Of a stretch of DNA of 64,000 bases, positions 5,663-37,282 are shown one piece after another. Location: positions 62,001 through 126,000 of the forward strand of contig NZ_JABMKW010000008.1 of NCBI RefSeq assembly GCF_013204795.1, in the 5' to 3' direction. The position numbers were made by a program, and so were the translations under genes. How positions within the stretch are numbered: position 1 is the stretch's first letter; each line of letters starts with the position of its first letter. The notes beneath the pieces are model-generated. The model searched no databases and was not told the origin of the DNA. It saw nothing but the letters and a program-made list of their open reading frames with translations. The DNA is from Pedobacter panaciterrae (lineage in GTDB: Bacteria > Bacteroidota > Bacteroidia > Sphingobacteriales > Sphingobacteriaceae).

Positions 5663-6955
5663 GTGTCGTTAGATAAATTAAAACTAAGCAAGTCGCTGGT
5701 AACAGCAATGAATGATGCCGGATATATATCTGCTAAAGAAATTCAGGCAAAAACTATGTCCAGGATAATTGGCGGGCAAGATATTATTGCTGTTGGACCT
5801 GAAGGCTGTGGTAAAACCACAACCTACGTGCTTGGCGTTTTAATGCGTTTAAAATACAGTACTGATGAGGCTCCTAAAGTATTAATTCTGGTTCCGGATC
5901 AGGAACGTGTGCTTGCAGTAATTGAAGAGTTCAAACTTTTAAGCAAAAACCGCAATCTGCGTATTATCGGCTTGTACGGTACAGGGGGCATGGATGAGGT
6001 GATTCAGGAACTGCTTGACGGTATTGATATTGTGGTTGCTACACCTACCAGAGCACGCGCGGTATATTTAAAACTTGGCCTTAACTTAAACAGGTTACAA
6101 ATGCTGATAGTTGATGATGCTGAAGTGATTGTAAAGCAAGGTATGCCGTTACCGGTTTGTGAATTGGCAAGAAGTGCCGGTAAAGTTCAGCATTTAATTT
6201 TTACTACTGTTGTTCATGATAAACTGAACCTGATGATTGATCAGTTTATGAATTTCCCTACTACTTTAGAGGTTGAAGATCTTGGAGATAGTAAGGCAAT
6301 AACGCACGAGCTTTTGCTATATCAGGTGCCTAATTTTAAAACCAAGGTGAACTTACTGAACCTGTTGTTGCGTGATGATGAGGTGTTTGATAAGGTTGTG
6401 GTTTTTGTGAATTCGAGATTAACAGCGCAGAAACTTGGTAAAACTTTACACTCGGCCAAACCAGGTGAGGTTTCTGTATTGAATCCTTTGTTTTTTGATG
6501 AAGAGGGTTTTGATCATATAGAGGATTTTAAAGATACCCCTGAAGCAAGGGTTTTAGTTATAGCCAATGAGGGATCTGCAAATGTAGACTTATCGGGTAT
6601 TCCATTTTTATTCCACTTTGAGGTTCCTGAACATAAGGAATTGTTTTTAAGCAGGGTTGTAAAATCAGACTCGGAAGAGATTGTGGCCATTACTTTTGCT
6701 ACTGATATGGAACTGGTAGACTTAAGGAAGATTGAGCAGTCGTTAGGTGCAAAAATTCCGGTTATGGATTTGCCTGAAGATTTGGTGATTGATAAAGTTG
6801 CTAAAGCCTCTACTAAAATTAAAACAGTAAAAGAAACTGTTGACGCTCCAAAAGGTGGTGGCGCTTTTCATGATAAAAAAGAAAGCAACACGAAAGATTA
6901 TAACTACGGAATTGGGCAGAAAGCTAAAATGACAATGAAAAAGAAACACGGTTAA
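5663..6955 (+). CDS. DEAD-box helicase-like protein with degenerate motifs
   Basis: A 430-residue protein with superfamily 2 helicase architecture, starting at GTG 5663. Visible: a Q-motif-like Gln28 (KEIQAKTM), intact Walker A GPEGCGKT (45-52), motif Ib TPTR (127-130) and a C-terminal RecA-like domain with VVVFVNSRLTAQKLGKTL. Motif II reads DDAE (151-154) where active enzymes have DEAD. The SAT motif is replaced by FTT, motif V (usually ARGxD) reads ANEGSANVDL, and I see no HRxGRxGR motif VI. The tail is basic (KAKMTMKKKHG), as in RNA-binding DEAD-box proteins. It may bind ATP and RNA without ordinary unwinding. It is convergent with the sulfotransferase-like gene. Confidence 0.85.
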   Translation: MSLDKLKLSKSLVTAMNDAGYISAKEIQAKTMSRIIGGQDIIAVGPEGCGKTTTYVLGVLMRLKYSTDEAPKVLILVPDQERVLAVIEEFKLLSKNRNLRIIGLYGTGGMDEVIQELLDGIDIVVATPTRARAVYLKLGLNLNRLQMLIVDDAEVIVKQGMPLPVCELARSAGKVQHLIFTTVVHDKLNLMIDQFMNFPTTLEVEDLGDSKAITHELLLYQVPNFKTKVNLLNLLLRDDEVFDKVVVFVNSRLTAQKLGKTLHSAKPGEVSVLNPLFFDEEGFDHIEDFKDTPEARVLVIANEGSANVDLSGIPFLFHFEVPEHKELFLSRVVKSDSEEIVAITFATDMELVDLRKIEQSLGAKIPVMDLPEDLVIDKVAKASTKIKTVKETVDAPKGGGAFHDKKESNTKDYNYGIGQKAKMTMKKKHG

Positions 6956-6967
6956 TTATACTGTGTT
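6945..6967. terminator. Weak hairpin between convergent genes
   Basis: AACACGG (6945-6951) pairs with CTGTGTT (6961-6967) with one G-U pair and a 9-base loop, spanning both stop codons. There is no strong U-tract, so termination is only suggested by position. Confidence 0.3.
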
Positions 6968-8366
6968 ATTCTATATAGGGTGCTAATTTTTCTTTAGGTA
7001 TAAACTCTACGCGATAAGGCATAATACTACTTTTGAGCATCCAAAGGAAAGTTCCTTTAAAGTTGGTAAGTACTACAGTATGTCTTTTTGAGGTACATTG
7101 TAAAATTGTAGTATCAGCTATCAGGTAAGAGCTTCCCATGCGGTCGTTATAGATTTCCTGCGGAAGCTTTGTTTCGGTAACCAGTTGTGATGTTTTATCG
7201 CTTTCATCTAGCTTAAATATCAGTGTTCTGGATAGCTTTTTACTGGTGCCATTGTCGAACAGCATCAGGTTACCCTGATTGTTCATGTGAACGGAATGAC
7301 CCTGATCAAAGGTGCTTCCTTCGGGCATTTTAAAGTCGCCATCTTTACCGAACTTCCAGATCACTTTACCTGTTTTGGCGTCTATTTTCCAGATTTGTCC
7401 GTTGTTATAAAAGGAGATAATGTAATTGCCATCCTTATCGAAATTTAAGCTGTTTGCATGCATCCAGTCTTTCTTATCCCTCATTAAATTTTTGTCCTTT
7501 AACGGATCAAGCTCGTCAAATACTTTCCAGCTCCATACTTTCTTGCCTTTCCTGTCTAGTACTAAAATACCATCGCTCTTAACGGTGTCTTGTTTGCTGC
7601 CTCCATATTTACTAAGGTCCATTATCTTTTGTTCTACACACAAGGTAACTACCTGATTTTGCTTGTTTAATATAATTTCGTGATGTATGGTTTGCTTAAA
7701 ATCCTTTTCACCTTTTTTGAGATGAAGCAAGGTATCGCCATTTAAAGATACCTCCAGTATTTCATTGCCATAACTGGTTGGGTACTCATCATTACCAAGA
7801 ATGGAAAGCAGGGTTTTGTTTTGGGTAAAGTGAGTGGTTTTAAAACCTGTTCCATCTACCTGATGGTACCATTTTATTGCGCCTTTAGCATCTATAATGA
7901 AAATGATGCCGGGTATTTCTCTTCTGTAGATAAGCATATAGCCTTCTTTGAAAGAGGTAGGGATTACTTTAGGATCAGGGGCGTAAACTTTAAAGAAGTC
8001 CTGTATCCACATTGGGAAGTCTGTGGTTCTAAAATCGTAGGTTTTGCTTTTGGCTTCGCATTTACTGGTCTGTGTAATTACACGATACTGATATTCTTGT
8101 TTGGGATTTAAGTTGGTCATCACGATGCGGTGATGCTTTTTGTTGACCGAAACGGGAGTTCTTGTTATTTGCTTTTCTTTTCCCTTTGGCCAATATTCAA
8201 TTGAAACATCTAAAGAGGTTTTGAGTTCTACATCGGCATGTACCTTTAAGCTATTCCTATCTGGAGCGCTGAGTTTTATCTCTATAATTTGTTGCTCGCA
8301 CTGGTTAGCGCAGGCACTTAACAGAAATAAAAAGAATAGGGGAATCAGTCTCTTTATGAATTGCAT
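6966..8366 (-). CDS. Arylsulfotransferase (ASST)-like lipoprotein
   Basis: A 466-residue predicted lipoprotein (LLSAC, Cys19). Residues 25-115 resemble a fibronectin type III-like domain (NLNPKQEYQYRV). The rest has the beta-propeller look of the arylsulfotransferase family: GIIFIIDAKGAIKWYHQVDG, IHHEI, a conserved DWMHANSLNFD and GHSVHMNNQGNLMLFDNG, in which the histidines match the positions expected for PAPS-independent transfer of sulfate between phenols. A strong terminator separates it from the SusD gene upstream, so it is probably transcribed on its own. The exact substrate is unknown, and a non-enzymatic propeller role is possible. Start ATG at 8364-8366 gives a good lipoprotein signal. 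Confidence 0.8.
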   Translation of the reverse strand: MQFIKRLIPLFFLFLLSACANQCEQQIIEIKLSAPDRNSLKVHADVELKTSLDVSIEYWPKGKEKQITRTPVSVNKKHHRIVMTNLNPKQEYQYRVITQTSKCEAKSKTYDFRTTDFPMWIQDFFKVYAPDPKVIPTSFKEGYMLIYRREIPGIIFIIDAKGAIKWYHQVDGTGFKTTHFTQNKTLLSILGNDEYPTSYGNEILEVSLNGDTLLHLKKGEKDFKQTIHHEIILNKQNQVVTLCVEQKIMDLSKYGGSKQDTVKSDGILVLDRKGKKVWSWKVFDELDPLKDKNLMRDKKDWMHANSLNFDKDGNYIISFYNNGQIWKIDAKTGKVIWKFGKDGDFKMPEGSTFDQGHSVHMNNQGNLMLFDNGTSKKLSRTLIFKLDESDKTSQLVTETKLPQEIYNDRMGSSYLIADTTILQCTSKRHTVVLTNFKGTFLWMLKSSIMPYRVEFIPKEKLAPYIE

Positions 8367-30265: not shown

Positions 30266-30889
30266 TTAACCAGCCTTCTTTAATGTTATTCTGTAGGCGC
30301 ACCTTCTGTCGCCTGAAATAATATGATTTACCCTTGTTATATCTATATCCTCACCTAATACAAACTTAAAAGTATTAAGCTCTGAGGCGCAAAAACCCTG
30401 GCAAACCTGCGCTGCTGCACAAATTGGGCAGTGGTTCTCTATCAACAAATAGCCTTGTTCATCTTTACTATATTCAGCCATGTATCCTTCTCGTGTGCGG
30501 ATATCTGCGAGTTGGGAGATACGACCTTCAAGATCTGTAATAGATTGTAATTCGTTAGAATATTTTTCCTTGCCAACTTGTTCGCCTGCTGCTATCACTT
30601 TATCAAGAGCCTCGTCGCCCAGCGTGGTCTTCATAAGTTGTATCAGTTTAACAGTAAGTTCGGCATGCGTATCTGGAAAACCAGCATTTCCTTCTTCTGT
30701 TAAACTAAAGTAAACGGTGGGCCTGCCAACACCTTTTGATTCGTTGGTCGATTTGATCAATCCCTCCTCACTTAATTTGATGAGTTGTAAGCGCGCGCCT
30801 TCACTTGTAATCCCAAGTTCTTTTGAAATTTCTCCTGCAGTTAATGCACCACGGGTTTTTAAAAGCATTAAGAATCGATTTGTCTTCAT
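30266..30889 (-). CDS. SufR-like winged-helix regulator with a cysteine cluster
   Basis: A 207-residue protein. Residues 3-62 form a DeoR/ArsR-type winged helix (GALTAGEISKELGITSEGARLQLIKLSEEGLI), followed by the SufR-like linker GRPTVYFSLTEEGNAGFPDTH. The C-terminal half has cysteines at 154, 157, 163, 167 and 197 (NHCPICAAAQVCQGFC, then RRCAYR), the pattern used to hold an Fe-S cluster in SufR-type regulators. It probably senses iron-sulfur or redox status; this is inference from the family. It is divergent from an RND efflux operon, and an inverted repeat lies over its predicted transcription start, so it likely represses itself and controls the pump. No suf genes are nearby. Confidence 0.88.
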   Translation of the reverse strand: MKTNRFLMLLKTRGALTAGEISKELGITSEGARLQLIKLSEEGLIKSTNESKGVGRPTVYFSLTEEGNAGFPDTHAELTVKLIQLMKTTLGDEALDKVIAAGEQVGKEKYSNELQSITDLEGRISQLADIRTREGYMAEYSKDEQGYLLIENHCPICAAAQVCQGFCASELNTFKFVLGEDIDITRVNHIISGDRRCAYRITLKKAG

Positions 30890-30894
30890 AATCT

Positions 30895-30922
30895 AATAAA
30901 ACAAGTATTTGGTTGTTTTATT
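30895..30922. promoter_or_regulatory. Predicted operator in the regulator/efflux divergent region
   Basis: AATAAAACAA (30895-30904) and TTGTTTTATT (30913-30922) are exact reverse complements separated by 8 bases. The site covers the predicted transcription start of the regulator, and its right arm contains the -33 TTG of the efflux promoter. That placement fits a repressor site acting on both genes. Confidence 0.65.
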
Positions 30923-30941
30923 CACAAAAGTACTAACTTTG
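30913..30941 (+). promoter_or_regulatory. Predicted promoter of the RND efflux operon
   Basis: TTG at 30913-30915 and TAACTTTG (exact -7 match) at 30934-30941 are 18 bases apart. The leader to the first gene would be about 170 bases. Confidence 0.6.
30925..30932 (-). promoter_or_regulatory. Predicted promoter core of the SufR-like regulator gene
   Basis: TACTTTTG on the minus strand matches TAnnTTTG exactly. It gives a leader of about 31 bases that consists mostly of the inverted-repeat operator. Confidence 0.55.
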
Positions 30942-31089
30942 CTTAACTTTTTAACGAAATAAAGAATTATAATGAAATTATCGTGATACTCCATATTTAA
31001 TTATTAACCCAACACTTAGTTCGGGCGATAAATAATCGCTGTTAACCTTAACTGCCAAAAAGAGATTTTTTAGGAGATGAGGACTACTT

Positions 31090-31164
31090 ATGCCAAAAAA
31101 GAAAAATTACATTTATGAAAACAATACAATTACTCTCATTATTAGGCGGAATGTTGCTATTTGA
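31090..31164 (+). other. Possible 24-codon upstream reading frame overlapping the efflux adaptor start
   Basis: ATG at 31090, preceded by AGGAGATGAGGA, opens a frame beginning MPKKKNYIYENN that overlaps the adaptor ATG (31115) out of frame and stops at 31164. It may be a leader peptide or coupling device, or chance. The strongly Lys/Asn/Ile-rich content does not prove coding. Confidence 0.25.
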
Positions 31165-32227
31165 AGCATGCAGCCCCACACAAAGCCAAACGCAGGAAGA
31201 AACTATTCAGGAATATCCGGTTTCAACAGTACAACCGAAAGATGCTGTTCTCAATACAGATTACTCAGCAACTATACAGGGTCAGCAGAACGTAGAGATC
31301 AGACCAAAAGTAGATGGGTTTGTAGAACAGATACTTGTTGATGAGGGTGCAGTTGTTAAAAAAGGTCAGTTACTTTTTAAAATAAATGCCCCCCAGTACG
31401 AACAGGAGGTTAGAACAGCTACGGCCGCCATAAAAAATGCTGAAGCTGAAGTAAGTACTGCAAAAATGCAAGTCGAGAAAACCTTGCCTCTGGTAAAAGA
31501 AGAGATCATTAGTAATTATGAACTTAAGCAGGCAAATTTTAATCTGCATGCTAAAGAAGCTGCACTTGCACAGGCAAAAGCTAGTTTAGTTAATGCCCGC
31601 ACTAATCTTGGCTATACTCATATAAATAGTCCTGCCGATGGGGTGGTGGGAAACTTACCCTATAAAACAGGCAGTCTGGTTAGCAGTTCATCTCCACAAC
31701 CGCTAACAACAGTTTCAAATATTGCAAGTGTTTTTGCCTACTTCTCCTTCAATGAAAAGCAGTTTCTGGATTTCACAGAAAACAACAAAGGGAAAACCAT
31801 AAAAGATAAGCTAATGAATATTCCTCCGGTAACACTTTTGTTGGCCAATGGAACAGAATATTCAAAAAAAGGCAAGCTGGAAACCTTAAGTGGATTAATC
31901 AATACAGAGACGGGTTCAGTTAATCTTAGGGCAAGTTTCCCCAACCCCGATGGATTAATTAGGAGTGGCGCCAGTGCACTTATTCGCATCCCATTAAAAG
32001 TAAGCAATGCACTTTTGGTCCCTACTAAAGCAACCTTCGAAATGCAGGAAAAAACGATGGTCTACACCGTTAAAAACGGTGCGGTAAAAAGTACTGAAAT
32101 AGAGATAATGGATGTCCCTTCTGGTGAATTTTATGTGGTAACAAAAGGACTGAACCCTGGCGAACAGATTGTGACGGAAGGAATGGGAAGCTTGAAAGAT
32201 GGAATGAAAATCAAAGCAAAACACTAA
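31115..32227 (+). CDS. RND efflux periplasmic adaptor subunit (AcrA/MexA family)
   Basis: A 370-residue membrane fusion lipoprotein (lipobox FEAC, Cys19). The usual modules are visible: a first lipoyl half (VEIRPKVDGFVEQILVDEGAVVKKGQLLFKI), a helical hairpin (about 100-165, NAEAEVSTAKMQVEK and AKEAALAQAKASLVNARTNL), the second lipoyl half (INSPADGVVGNLPYKTGSLV), then beta-barrel and membrane-proximal domains (ALLVPTKATFEMQEKTMVYTV). It links the inner-membrane pump to the outer-membrane channel. It is first of three genes with 6 and 10 bp spacing to the next, under the divergent SufR-like control region. Confidence 0.96.
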   Translation: MKTIQLLSLLGGMLLFEACSPTQSQTQEETIQEYPVSTVQPKDAVLNTDYSATIQGQQNVEIRPKVDGFVEQILVDEGAVVKKGQLLFKINAPQYEQEVRTATAAIKNAEAEVSTAKMQVEKTLPLVKEEIISNYELKQANFNLHAKEAALAQAKASLVNARTNLGYTHINSPADGVVGNLPYKTGSLVSSSSPQPLTTVSNIASVFAYFSFNEKQFLDFTENNKGKTIKDKLMNIPPVTLLLANGTEYSKKGKLETLSGLINTETGSVNLRASFPNPDGLIRSGASALIRIPLKVSNALLVPTKATFEMQEKTMVYTVKNGAVKSTEIEIMDVPSGEFYVVTKGLNPGEQIVTEGMGSLKDGMKIKAKH

Positions 32228-32233
32228 AATATT

Positions 32234-35200
32234 ATGTTAAAGAAATTTATAGATAACCCGGTCTTGTCTACCGTTATATCGGTTATCATAGTTATAATGG
32301 GGTTACTAGGCCTATATTCATTGCCTATTTCCCAGTATCCAGACATTGCTCCACCCGCCGTTGAAGTAAGTACCTCATATCAGGGAGCAAGTGCGGATGT
32401 GGTCATGAAAAGCGTAATTGTACCGCTCGAAGAAGAGATTAACGGAGTAGAACACATGACTTACATGACTTCTAAAGCAAGTAATGACGGTAGTGCCAGC
32501 ATTACAATAAACTTTAAGCAAGGTACAGATCCGGATATGGCTGCAATTAATGTGCAGAACAGAATCACCAAAGCTACAAGTTTGCTGCCAGCGGAAGTAA
32601 TCAAAGTTGGCATTACCACCAGTAAGCGGTTGAATAGTGAAGTATTTAGTTTTCTGTTGTACAGCGAGGATGGAAAGTATGATCAGAAATTCCTCGACAA
32701 CTATTTAAAAATTAATGTGATGCCTCAAATCAAAAGAGTTGAGGGAGTAGGGAATGCCGCTGTATATGGAGGTATGGATTACAGTATGAGAATCTGGCTT
32801 AAACCAGATGCCATGGCTGCTTATGGGTTAATCCCTTCTGATATTACAGAAGCGCTTGCAGAGCAAAACATAGAAGCTGCACCAGGTAAAGTAGGAGAGA
32901 ACAGTGGTCAGGCATTCCAGTATACCTTAAAATATACTGGTCGCCTTGAAAAACCTGCACAATTTGAAAACATCATACTCAAATCTGTAGGTAATGGTCA
33001 GGTACTTAAGTTAAAAGACATTGCTGAGGTAGACATGGGCTCTTTTACTTATTCGAGTACCATCATGGCGCAAGGTCATGAATCACCATATGTTGCAATC
33101 AATCAAACTTCAGGTTCCAATGCCAATGAGATCATAAAGAAGTGTATAAAAATATTGGACGATGCTTCATTAACCTTTCCAAAAGGAGTCAAGTATAGCG
33201 TATTCGCCAATGCAAATGAGTTTTTGGATGCTTCAATTTCTAAGCTTATAGTTACAATTATTGAAGCATTTATATTGGTATTCATTGTAGTATTTATCTT
33301 TTTGCAGGATTTCCGTTCTACCTTAATTCCGGCCATTGCAGTTCCGGTAGCTATTATAGGAACATTCTTTTTCCTTAAACTTTTTGGATTTACGATTAAC
33401 CTGCTTACACTTTTTGCCCTGGTTCTGGCCATTGGTATTGTGGTAGATGATGCCATTGTAGTAGTAGAGGCGGTTCATGCTAAATTAGATCAGGGTGCTA
33501 AATCAGCAAAAAAAGCAACTATGCATGCCATGAGTGAAATTAGCGGGGCTATTATCTCTATAACCCTCATTATGGCTGCGGTATTTGTTCCGGTAACTTT
33601 TGTTACGGGGTCGGTTGGGGTATTTTACAAGCAGTTTGGGTTAACACTTGCTGTGGCCATTATCATATCTGCAGTAAATGCACTTACTTTAAGTCCGGCA
33701 CTTTGCGCATTGTTGTTAAAACCACATGGCGAGCATCATGAACAGAAAACCGGCTTTTTACAGCGCTTTTATGCAGGGTTTAATGCTTCATTCAGCACCA
33801 TGACTAACCGTTATAAGAAGTCGGTTGTTTTTCTGATTGCGAAAAAATGGATTGCATTTGCGATAATCATTGTGTTTAGTCTTTTATTCTGGTTTTTGGT
33901 TAAAACCACTCCAACTGGATTTGTGCCTAATGAGGATAGTGGTTCCATATATGGTAACGTTATTTTACCTCCGGCAACTTCTTTGGAACGTACTGAATTC
34001 ATTGCAAATAAAATAGATAGCATCGCCAGATCTATTCCTGAGATTGAATTGTCATCTAGAGTTGCCGGTATGGATTTAATGAGCGGCACCGGGAGTTCGT
34101 ATGCGGCTATATTTATCAGGTTAAAGCCATGGAAAGAAAGAACAAAAAAAGGGCAGGATATTAAAAGTATTGTTGGTCAGTTGTTCGCAAAAACTGCAGA
34201 AATTAAAGGAGCCAATATCATTTTCTTTGCCGCACCAACATTACAGGGGTTTGGAAATAATGATGGTTTCGAATTTCAGTTGCAGGATAAAACAGGAGGT
34301 AGTTATAAGGCTTTTGATGCAGTAATTGGGAAGTTTATGGGAGCACTAAATCAGCGTCCTGAAATTATGTATGCTGCTACATCATACAACACAAGTTTTC
34401 CGCAGTACGAGGTTAATGTAAACGTTGCGAAATGCAAAGAAGCAGGTGTTCCTGTTAACCGCGTACTTGGAACGCTGCAAGGCTATTTGGGGGGTATTTA
34501 TGCGTCAGACTTTAATCGTTTTGGTAAACAATACCGTGTAATGATTCAGGCTGAAGCGGAACAGAGAACCAATAAAGAGGCCATCAATAGAATATTTGTT
34601 AGGAATGATAAAGGGGCTATGGCTCCGATATCAGAGTTTATTACACTTAAAAAAATCTATGGCCCGGAATTTATAAACCGCTTTAACTTGTTTACGGCTG
34701 GTGCCGTAAATGGCGCACCCAAGCCTGGTTATAGTTCTGGTGATGCGATAAAAGCAATTCAGGAAGTAGCTGCCCAAACCCTACCACAAGGTTATACTTA
34801 TGAATTCTCCGGTTTAACACTAGAAGAGTTGTCTAGTGGTAGTCAAACCCTATTGATCTTTATGCTCAGCTTGCTGTTCATTTATTTCTTATTGAGTGCC
34901 CAGTATAAGAGTTATATTCTGCCATTCTCAGTGCTGCTTTCTTTGCCTATAGGACTGGCTGGAGCATTCTTGTTTGCACGATTATTTGGGCTTGATAATA
35001 ACATATTTCTGCAAATAAGTTTAATTATGCTCATCGGCTTACTTGCAAAAAATGCGATCCTTATTGTGGAGTTCGCATTGATGCACCGCCTTAGTGGTAT
35101 GAGTTTAATCCAGTCGGCAATTTCAGGCGCTACAGCCCGACTAAGGCCAATTTTGATGACCTCTTTTGCCTTTATCTTCGGCTTGCTTCCCTTGATGATC

Positions 35201-35368
35201 GCTACCGGAGCAGGGGCTTTAAGTAACCGCTCAATAGGTACCGCAGCGGTTGGTGGGATGCTTGTAGGTACAGTATTCGGGGTGTTTGTAATCCCTGCAT
35301 TGTTTGTAGTTTTTCAATCTCTGCAAGAGAAAATATCTGGAGTACGCAAAAACAATGAAGTTTTATAA
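32234..35368 (+). CDS. RND efflux permease (AcrB/HAE1 family)
   Basis: A 1044-residue proton-driven drug exporter with 12 membrane helices and two large periplasmic loops. It begins MLKKFIDNPVLSTVISVIIVIMG and SLPISQYPDIAPPAV. The TM4 proton-relay motif GIVVDDAIVVVEAV carries the two aspartates, and TM10 has the essential lysine in GLLAKNAILIVEFAL. Other HAE1 signatures are VGNAAVYGGMDYSMRIWL and FVPNEDSGSIYGNVILP. It exports hydrophobic or amphiphilic compounds from the periplasm and membrane. It sits 6 bp after the adaptor gene and 10 bp before the outer-membrane factor, making a complete tripartite pump operon. Confidence 0.97.
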   Translation: MLKKFIDNPVLSTVISVIIVIMGLLGLYSLPISQYPDIAPPAVEVSTSYQGASADVVMKSVIVPLEEEINGVEHMTYMTSKASNDGSASITINFKQGTDPDMAAINVQNRITKATSLLPAEVIKVGITTSKRLNSEVFSFLLYSEDGKYDQKFLDNYLKINVMPQIKRVEGVGNAAVYGGMDYSMRIWLKPDAMAAYGLIPSDITEALAEQNIEAAPGKVGENSGQAFQYTLKYTGRLEKPAQFENIILKSVGNGQVLKLKDIAEVDMGSFTYSSTIMAQGHESPYVAINQTSGSNANEIIKKCIKILDDASLTFPKGVKYSVFANANEFLDASISKLIVTIIEAFILVFIVVFIFLQDFRSTLIPAIAVPVAIIGTFFFLKLFGFTINLLTLFALVLAIGIVVDDAIVVVEAVHAKLDQGAKSAKKATMHAMSEISGAIISITLIMAAVFVPVTFVTGSVGVFYKQFGLTLAVAIIISAVNALTLSPALCALLLKPHGEHHEQKTGFLQRFYAGFNASFSTMTNRYKKSVVFLIAKKWIAFAIIIVFSLLFWFLVKTTPTGFVPNEDSGSIYGNVILPPATSLERTEFIANKIDSIARSIPEIELSSRVAGMDLMSGTGSSYAAIFIRLKPWKERTKKGQDIKSIVGQLFAKTAEIKGANIIFFAAPTLQGFGNNDGFEFQLQDKTGGSYKAFDAVIGKFMGALNQRPEIMYAATSYNTSFPQYEVNVNVAKCKEAGVPVNRVLGTLQGYLGGIYASDFNRFGKQYRVMIQAEAEQRTNKEAINRIFVRNDKGAMAPISEFITLKKIYGPEFINRFNLFTAGAVNGAPKPGYSSGDAIKAIQEVAAQTLPQGYTYEFSGLTLEELSSGSQTLLIFMLSLLFIYFLLSAQYKSYILPFSVLLSLPIGLAGAFLFARLFGLDNNIFLQISLIMLIGLLAKNAILIVEFALMHRLSGMSLIQSAISGATARLRPILMTSFAFIFGLLPLMIATGAGALSNRSIGTAAVGGMLVGTVFGVFVIPALFVVFQSLQEKISGVRKNNEVL

Positions 35369-35378
35369 TTCGTAAGAA

Positions 35379-36767
35379 ATGAATATAATGAAAAAATTTA
35401 TAGGGCTAATAATTTTGCTGACCATGTTGGTGTCGTGCCAGGTATCAAAGAAATACGAAAGGCCAGCAATAGATACAAAGAATCTTTACAGGGATCAGCA
35501 CGATACAGATACAGTTACCATTGCCACTATGCCATGGCAAAAGTTGTTTAATGATTCGCTGTTAATTGAATTGATAACAGAAGGATTACAGCAAAACCTT
35601 GATCTGAAAATAGCTGTAGAACATATAAATGCAGCCAGAGCTAATTTTAAGCAAAGTAAAGCTGCTTTTTTACCAGACTTAACTGGTAATGCGGCCATAA
35701 CCCAATCAAAATTGGCCTACCCTCAAGGATTTGGTATTATCAGCTCATCAACCCAGTATGATGTGGGGTTAACGGCCAGCTGGGAAGCAGATATTTGGGG
35801 TAAGCTTAAAAGTAGTAAGCGTAGTGCACTAGCTGGTTTACTGCAAACGGAAGAAGCGCGAAAGGCTGTGCAAACACAACTGATCTCTGAAATTGCAAAT
35901 AACTATTTTACACTTTTGGCCTTGGATGAACAGCTAATTGTTTTAGAGAAAACGGTTGCTAACAGGAAAACGGATGTAAGCACAATGAAATCTTTAAAAG
36001 CAGCTAATATAGTAACCGGCGCCGCTGAAGTGCAGAGCGAAGCCAATCAATATGCGGCAGAAGTTGCTATACCCCGTTTAAAAAGGCAAATAAGAGAAAC
36101 GGAAAATGCTATGAATGTTTTACTGGTTCGTAAAGCAGGTTCAGTAAATAGGAAAGCACTAGAATCTCAACAATTACCCTTTGATCTGAATATCGGTATT
36201 CCTGCCCAATTACTCCAGAACCGACCTGATGTTAAACAAGCAGAGTATGCTTTTATGAAGGCTTTTGAAACAACTAATGTTGCCCGACAGCTTTTTTACC
36301 CATCACTCAACATCACAGCTTCAAGTGGCTTTACCAGTTTTAGTTTTAAAGACTGGATTACACCCTCTGGGTTGTTTGCAAATGTTGCGGCAGGAATAAC
36401 CCAGCCTATCTTTAATAAGGGAGCAAATAAGGCTAGACTAACAACTGCCAGGGCTGCTCAACAGGAATCGGCGTATCTATTTCAGAAATCCTTATTGAAA
36501 GCGGGAGAGGAGGTTTCTAATGCGCTTTTCTCTTACCAAACCGCAATTGAACAGCAAAACATAAGAACTAAACAATTGCAATCGCTGCAGAAATCGGTAG
36601 ATTTTACCAAAAAACTGTTGCGTTATAGTTCTGCAACAAATTATACAGATGTATTAACTTCTGAACAGAACTTGCTATCGGCACAACTCGATAATATTGG
36701 TGATAAATTACAGCAATGGCAGGCAGTAATTAGTCTTTATCGCGCTCTTGGGGGTGGTTGGCAATAA
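35379..36767 (+). CDS. Outer-membrane efflux lipoprotein (TolC/NodT family)
   Basis: A 462-residue outer-membrane factor with a lipobox MLVSC (Cys20). NodT-family features: MPWQKLFNDSLLIELITEGLQQNLDLKIAVEHINAAR near the start, LTASWEADIWGKLKSSKRSA, PAQLLQNRPDVKQAEYAF, and LFANVAAGITQPIFNKG in the second repeat, with long coiled-coil helices between. It forms the exit duct of the pump encoded by the two preceding genes. MKKF at 35388 is an alternative start. The gene ends close to the convergent HsdR-like gene, and the two 3' ends share a bulged inverted repeat. Confidence 0.96.
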   Translation: MNIMKKFIGLIILLTMLVSCQVSKKYERPAIDTKNLYRDQHDTDTVTIATMPWQKLFNDSLLIELITEGLQQNLDLKIAVEHINAARANFKQSKAAFLPDLTGNAAITQSKLAYPQGFGIISSSTQYDVGLTASWEADIWGKLKSSKRSALAGLLQTEEARKAVQTQLISEIANNYFTLLALDEQLIVLEKTVANRKTDVSTMKSLKAANIVTGAAEVQSEANQYAAEVAIPRLKRQIRETENAMNVLLVRKAGSVNRKALESQQLPFDLNIGIPAQLLQNRPDVKQAEYAFMKAFETTNVARQLFYPSLNITASSGFTSFSFKDWITPSGLFANVAAGITQPIFNKGANKARLTTARAAQQESAYLFQKSLLKAGEEVSNALFSYQTAIEQQNIRTKQLQSLQKSVDFTKKLLRYSSATNYTDVLTSEQNLLSAQLDNIGDKLQQWQAVISLYRALGGGWQ

Positions 36768-36774
36768 AAGTACA

Positions 36775-36842
36775 GAGGAGACAGTTTGTTCTTATAAGGA
36801 TTGATACTCTGGAAGATCTTTTATAAAGACAAACTGTTCCTC
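36775..36842. repeat. Bulged inverted repeat linking two convergent 3' ends
   Basis: GAGGAGACAGTTTGT (36775-36789) is complementary to ACAAACTGTTCCTC (36829-36842) except for one extra base, with a 39-base loop. The right arm lies inside the last codons of the minus-strand gene. It could protect or end both mRNAs. Confidence 0.5.
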
Positions 36843-37253
36843 TTTGTGGTCTATTGTTGCATAACAATGCATTAGTCCGTTGGTTACTACCAGCCATTTG
36901 GTTTTATGAACAGAGTTGTACCTGGCCGCCTGGTCAAAAGTAGCCTGACTTATCTTAACAGAAGGTGCTTTACATTCAATAACCATTATTCGCTCTCCAT
37001 GGGTACTGAATATTACAATATCTGTTCTCTTTTGAAGTTTATTTAAGTTAAGTCCGCCTTCTATTTGAATAAGCGACTTTGGAAATTTCTTTTCCAGTAT
37101 CAGAAACTGGATGAAATGTTGTCTAACCCATTCTTCGGGTGTTAGTACCAGATGTTTTTTTCTTACTTCGTCAAAGATAAAATAACGCGACTCCTTTAGT
37201 GTGATCTTGAAAGGATATTGTGGTAGGTTAAGTGCTGTTGGTGTGAATGACAT
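36792..37253 (-). CDS. HsdR N-terminal-domain (PD-(D/E)xK) protein
   Basis: A 153-residue stand-alone protein from ATG 37251-37253, similar to the N-terminal nuclease domain of type I restriction subunit HsdR (HSDR_N_2). The fold's core residues are readable: Asp78 (KRTDIVIF), Glu93 and Lys95 (MVIECKAP), the PD-(D/E)xK arrangement, after LTPEEWVRQHFIQFLI. No helicase domain, methylase or specificity gene is nearby, so it is not a restriction system here. It is divergent from holA with 46 bp between starts, which hints at a DNA-linked role; that is inference only. Confidence 0.88.
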   Translation of the reverse strand: MSFTPTALNLPQYPFKITLKESRYFIFDEVRKKHLVLTPEEWVRQHFIQFLILEKKFPKSLIQIEGGLNLNKLQKRTDIVIFSTHGERIMVIECKAPSVKISQATFDQAARYNSVHKTKWLVVTNGLMHCYATIDHKEEQFVFIKDLPEYQSL

Positions 37254-37282
37254 TTTTGTAAAAATAGGCAAAAAATTTTATC

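Follow-up and report, generated by a model that had tools for sequence, protein, structure and literature searches.

A SufR-related winged-helix regulator and its conserved operator as predicted controls of an RND efflux operon in Pedobacter

The SufR proteins, represented by Synechocystis sll0088, Mycobacterium tuberculosis Rv1460, Streptomyces avermitilis SufR, and Corynebacterium glutamicum Cg1765, bind an oxygen-sensitive [4Fe-4S] cluster and combine an N-terminal winged helix with a C-terminal cysteine domain. A review confines them to Cyanobacteria and a part of the Actinobacteria, with suf genes as their targets (PMC8593673). They are characterized by the motif C-X12-C-X13-C-X14-C (PMC8593673), with the cysteines C203-X12-C216 and C244 being required in Rv1460 (PMC6034842), and by the operator CAAC-N6-GTTG (PMC8593673, PMC11995493, PMC13421787; the S. 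avermitilis site as cited in PMC11995493). An unrelated iron-sulfur (Fe-S) sensor, the MerR-type [2Fe-2S] activator SoxR, is tied to multidrug RND pumps in the SoxR-mexGHI-opmD system of Pseudomonas aeruginosa and the SoxRS-acrAB system of Escherichia coli (PMC7671543, PMC10333786). Here, we analyze a stretch of 64,000 nucleotides from Pedobacter panaciterrae (RefSeq assembly GCF_013204795.1, contig NZ_JABMKW010000008.1, positions 62,001 to 126,000; hereafter the window), in which the gene for a SufR-related winged-helix regulator diverges from an RND efflux operon. We consider it likely that this regulator acts through a conserved operator to repress both the pump and itself, with release upon redox damage to an Fe-S cluster. 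In principle, control of an RND pump by an Fe-S sensor already has precedents in SoxR-mexGHI and SoxR-AcrAB; a SufR-type sensor in that role appears new, in that a literature search recovered no paper joining SufR with RND efflux, although the collection was limited and a prior description elsewhere is possible.

The regulator and its relationship to SufR

The regulator is encoded in a single copy in the 6.2 Mb host genome and is 99% identical in Pedobacter sp. V48. Its sole full-length family match is to the cyanobacterial/actinobacterial SufR model of NCBIfam (SufR_cyano, TIGR02702; E 2.5e-30, residues 6-201 of 207 matched), which has a curated equivalog cut-off of 178.8 bits. Searches against Pfam and NCBIfam recover no match to MerR or SoxR (TIGR01950), and the Pfam helix-turn-helix matches taken alone (PadR, HTH_20) fall below their cut-offs. 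Among solved structures there is no whole-length relative, the best matches being to winged-helix domains only (PadR, ZitR).

The translated open reading frame (ORF) has cysteines at positions 154, 157, 163, 167, and 197, exactly as given in the initial annotation of the window. In an alignment of 101 homologues, Cys154-X12-Cys167 and Cys197, which agree with the three cysteines required in Rv1460, are invariant throughout. Cys157 and Cys163 are additional to the SufR set, and all five positions are invariant in 95 of the homologues; the remaining six, which lack the additional pair, are encoded at the ends of SUF operons in Pedobacter. The possibility that Cys157 and Cys163 are specific to the RND-linked clade was rejected on this distribution. 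An AlphaFold model (pLDDT 85.8, pTM 0.68) places the cysteines around helices 155-160 and 164-178 and a strand at 194-203. Those sister clades of the regulator that were scored against TIGR02702 reach 94.8-112.8 bits, and by sequence the regulator is best classified as a member of a five-cysteine sister family of SufR that lies outside the curated SufR definition.

The features shared with SufR comprise the domain organization, the CX12C + C positions, an inverted-repeat operator with N6 spacing, and divergent gene placement as in cyanobacteria (PMC6034842, PMC8593673, PMC13421787); it differs in scoring below the equivalog cut-off, in its two extra invariant cysteines, and in having an RND pump rather than suf as its partner. 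The suf-linked relatives, namely the five-cysteine versions of Chitinophaga and the three-cysteine versions of Pedobacter, are 45-57% identical to it and share its operator geometry, with the site lying between the regulator and a SufA/SufB operon or upstream of sufB. In these, however, the target is the SUF operon, and the Pedobacter suf-end copies retain just the three SufR cysteines.

The operator and its association with the pump

The intergenic region contains a perfect inverted repeat, located precisely where the initial annotation had it, 5 bp ahead of the regulator start codon (Table 1). Read in the orientation of the regulator it is AATAAAA-CAAC-CAAATA-CTTG-TTTTATT, whose core CAAC-N6-CTTG agrees with the published SufR site at 7 of 8 positions with equal N6 spacing. 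In an alignment of 20 RND-linked loci (Pedobacter, Sphingobacterium, and Flavobacteriaceae), none of the 20 arm positions varies, and the spacer has a mean column identity of 0.89 as against 0.48-0.57 for the upstream flanks. With up to three mismatches allowed, the operator is the single match in the window (0.05 +/- 0.22 in shuffled sequences), and the whole host genome has one exact match, at the pump locus. This conservation predicts a clearly functional site. The divergent arrangement of regulator and RND genes is maintained in this 20-member clade despite differing flanking genes; phylogenetically, the RND loci of Pedobacter, Sphingobacterium, and Flavobacterium form one clade (20 rows, support 100/99) that spans Sphingobacteriaceae and Flavobacteriaceae, while further RND links fall within the group linked to superoxide dismutase (SOD) and flavin mononucleotide (FMN) reductase.

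Two divergent Bacteroidota-type -7 boxes adjoin each other beside the repeat, each at a constant distance from it (in 20/20 relatives for the pump and 19/20 for the regulator), which implies that the repeat covers the -33 region of the pump promoter and likely the transcription start of the regulator; the initial annotation had proposed the same overlap, which thus holds. The candidate pump -33 element lies inside the operator, with a spacing to the -7 box of 22 nt (for TTTG) or 18 nt (for TTG), and the regulator transcript is expected to begin inside the operator.

The initial annotation had also suggested looking for the operator elsewhere. We searched 119 Pedobacter genomes with the DNA pattern alone, allowing at most one mismatch and using the reversed pattern as a control: the operator is matched in 31 genomes and the reversed pattern in 1. 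In 29 of the 30 loci fetched, the regulator is found 5 bp away, nearly always opposite an RND adaptor gene, either immediately or with a DUF2480 gene in between; in the thirtieth, the operator precedes an exporter of the major facilitator superfamily (MFS). Extra operators away from the regulator locus are seen in four genomes (G023, G438, G468, and G479), ahead of the same DHA2-like MFS exporter, which is 47-48% identical to the MFS protein facing a homologous regulator in Rhizobiales; we accordingly predict this exporter to be a second member of the regulon in those four genomes. G438 has three predicted sites, at the regulator with DUF2480, the MFS exporter, and the RND operon. There the regulator gene has moved next to DUF2480, yet the operator is retained before the RND operon beside valS, matching its placement in the window. 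With regulator and target separated naturally, this genome provides the strongest evidence from sequence that the pump is what the site acts on, and, together with the conserved divergent promoters and the SufR-like operator geometry, it lends comparative-genomic support to the claim of the initial annotation that the regulator and operator control the RND operon.

Pfam and NCBIfam models confirm the adaptor, permease, and outer-membrane genes of this operon. The permease fails the heavy-metal model TIGR00914 (CusA/CzcA) at 336.6 bits against a cut-off of 701.45, and heavy-metal export was rejected, as neither the permease nor the adaptor passes the metal models. Hence, of the metal or redox stress to which the pump had initially been linked, the metal half is not supported; the redox half has more in its favor, since regulators of this family also face genes for SOD, FMN reductase, ferredoxin reductase (FNR), and SUF proteins.

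Table 1. Features of the regulator-pump locus in the window, and operators located in other genomes (L, locus)
Feature	Coordinates	Strand	Evidence
SufR-related five-cysteine winged-helix regulator, 207 aa	30266..30889	-	TIGR02702 full length, below equivalog cut-off
Predicted operator, perfect inverted repeat AATAAAACAA-N8-TTGTTTTATT	30895..30922	.	Exact repeat, conservation, pattern search
Candidate pump -33 element, TTTG 30908-30911 or TTG 30913-30915	30908..30915	+	Inferred from Bacteroidota promoter consensus
Regulator -7 box TACTTTTG (TAnnTTTG)	30925..30932	-	Fixed distance to repeat
Pump -7 box TAACTTTG (TAnnTTTG)	30934..30941	+	Fixed distance to repeat
RND periplasmic adaptor (membrane-fusion protein), 370 aa	31115..32227	+	TIGR01730, 265.7 bits, cut-off 94.9
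RND permease, HAE-1/multidrug type, 1044 aa	32234..35368	+	TIGR00915, 1047.2 bits, cut-off 940.35
Outer-membrane efflux protein, NodT/TolC type, 462 aa	35379..36767	+	TIGR01845, 260.1 bits, cut-off 210.05
Operator ahead of DHA2-like MFS, G023	L209:3108-3135		
Operator ahead of DHA2-like MFS, G479	L211:3433-3460		
Operator ahead of DHA2-like MFS, G468	L212:3258-3285		
Operator ahead of DHA2-like MFS, G438	L207:3426-3453		
Operator ahead of RND operon beside valS, G438	L208:3500-3527		1 mismatch

Partners of the wider family and the proposed switch

We classified 102 regulator loci by partner, some genomes having been fetched twice: RND 24, SOD 32, SUF 20, MFS 7, FMN reductase 4, and other 15; example SOD, FMN reductase, MFS, and FNR partners were checked with Pfam or NCBIfam models. 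The partners form modules such as SOD-DUF2480-FMN reductase in Chryseobacterium, FMN reductase-SufA-SufBCDSE in Chitinophaga, and SOD-FdxA-flavin reductase-FNR on a Salipiger plasmid. Efflux genes recur as regulator-MFS pairs in Serratia, Rahnella, Pseudomonas, and on a Klebsiella plasmid, as an RND set resembling AxyXY-OprZ beside the regulator on a Comamonas plasmid, and in a Chitinophaga locus (L073) with the order SOD-adaptor-permease-outer-membrane factor. The SOD-linked relatives at L169 and L170 have an exact CAAC-N6-GTTG core within the same arms (AATAAAACAAC-N6-GTTGTTTTATT), and the relatives at L102 and L115 likewise match this core at 8 of 8 positions. For the Pedobacter suf-end paralogues, AATAAACAAAG-N6-CTTTGTTTATT precedes sufB in 6 of 6 genomes, with one of these departing from it at a single position, indicating that the paralogues have a common operator geometry and different half-sites. 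A SufR-related family with the SufR operator core extends to Bacteroidota and Proteobacteria, where its connections are to efflux pumps and to the defence against superoxide, and it supplies a predicted operator for regulon searches.

The partner set of RND, SOD, FMN reductase, SUF, MFS, and ferredoxin reductase resembles the SoxRS regulon (PMC7671543, PMC10333786), and, as with SoxR, an Fe-S sensor would here be tied to a multidrug-type RND pump; in contrast to the SoxR activator, the protein is a SufR-type winged helix and probably a repressor. We propose that the regulator, probably as a dimer, occupies the inverted repeat between the two divergent promoters, where it would block the pump -33 region and its own transcription start and hold both transcripts low. 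In the C-terminal domain, Cys154, Cys167, and Cys197 would most likely hold an Fe-S cluster, with Cys157 and Cys163 as possible additional or alternative ligands. Should superoxide or redox-cycling compounds destroy the cluster or alter its redox state, the DNA would be freed, and the partner genes of the family suggest that the resulting expression of the pump would expel the offending compound. If so, this would be a local counterpart of the SoxR switch, and would suggest a way in which redox-cycling toxins could trigger multidrug export in bacteria that lack SoxR; SoxR is above the cut-off in none of the 26 Pedobacter genomes examined.

A broader proposition is that five-cysteine SufR relatives from Bacteroidota, alpha-, beta-, and gamma-proteobacteria, and Acidobacteriota are widespread Fe-S redox regulators doing the work of SoxR, namely local repressors that would switch on efflux, SOD, flavin/ferredoxin reductases, and SUF upon cluster damage from redox-cycling toxins, with the Pedobacter/Flavobacterium RND clade as a drug-efflux branch. 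We regard this as evenly poised between being right and wrong.

Alternative explanations and further observations

Several points weigh against the proposed Fe-S switch. The regulator scores 105.7 bits against the TIGR02702 cut-off of 178.8, such that the SufR-like label of the initial annotation stands as a relationship, supported by the full-length match, the cysteine positions, and the operator core, and not as SufR equivalence. The third position of the four-cysteine motif is Asp181 and is never a cysteine in the alignment, which tells against a SufR-type cluster, although three cysteines apparently suffice in Rv1460. The two extra cysteines could indicate another cofactor (zinc) or a thiol switch. 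The host itself shows no redox regulon, as the operator repeat was looked for and not found upstream of its sufB and SOD genes. A literature search in the same limited collection recovered no experiment on any five-cysteine member, nor any paper on SufR and SOD in Bacteroidetes, SufR-like proteins, or COG2345 and superoxide.

The chief rival to the Fe-S switch concerns the same cysteines: the regulator could control the pump via the operator but sense by a zinc site or a disulfide/alkylation switch responding to quinones, electrophiles, or peroxide. The nearly universal Cys157 and Cys163, the labeling of relatives as ArsR/SmtB metalloregulators by NCBI, and FMN-reductase-like partners befitting electrophile stress all favor such a sensor; yet even the SUF-linked paralogues of Pedobacter retain three of the cysteines, which coincide exactly with the Fe-S positions of SufR, and SUF operons are among the partners of the family, an arrangement that a sensor using zinc or thiols alone would not readily account for. 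We hold this rival to be improbable. Considerably less probable is an ordinary local repressor whose C-terminal pocket binds a pump substrate, the cysteines being structural. Divergent repressor-pump pairs are indeed common for TetR and MarR regulators, and the operator is confined to a single locus in the host genome, but the cysteines remain invariant while the partners vary between pump, SOD, SUF, and MFS, making a common small-molecule substrate unlikely. That the repeat arose by chance or is a structural feature (a terminator or the site of another protein), with neighbors unrelated to the regulator, we deem highly improbable: A+T-rich repeats are frequent, and a search of the host genome with a less stringent 22-bp pattern, allowing 2 mismatches, gives 281 matches versus 214 for the control, but the exact arms in 20/20 relatives, the strict 5-bp distance, the return of the regulator by the pattern-first search, and the persistence of the operator at the pump after the regulator moved already contradict it.

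The regulator also differs from SufR in its host context, its neighbor being the RND operon and not the host suf operon, whereas its sister clades do face SUF operons. At the end of the host SUF operon (L155) stands an IscR-related gene of the Rrf2 family (L155:9818-10288), and the operon lacks the repeat, so that the pump looks like the sole charge of the SufR relative in this genome; a wider regulon in the host was rejected, there being no second exact operator in the genome and none before sufB or SOD. In other Pedobacter genomes, a three-cysteine SufR relative occupies the position of the Rrf2 gene, suggesting an apparent exchange of regulators.

DUF2480 recurs between the regulator and RND, SOD, or FMN-reductase genes (L021, L022, L061, L063-L065, L069-L071, and Chryseobacterium L099-L126), and from this context looks like a redox-stress protein; L070 is an orthologous DUF2480-RND cassette in Flavobacterium johnsoniae CI04. 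No paper on DUF2480 turned up in the limited literature collection. In the proteobacterial relatives L103, L124, L128, and L132 (about 6945-7001), CAAG-N6-CTTG appears to overlap the first regulator codons; these proteins begin with MSSxDLEN or similar, and the operator and N-terminus would share sequence. The analysis also points to family members on plasmids of Klebsiella (L171, NZ_CP129796.1), E. coli (NZ_CP116116.1), and Comamonas (L172, NZ_MT011984.1), which are annotated just as ArsR/SmtB or MarR; the Klebsiella version faces the MFS transporter and the Comamonas version adjoins the RND set. Finally, an ORF just 3' of the pump (36792-37271, minus strand) resembles, by eye, a restriction-type endonuclease N-terminal domain (ECKAP motif), and a similar ORF also follows the RND operon in the relatives L024 and L025.

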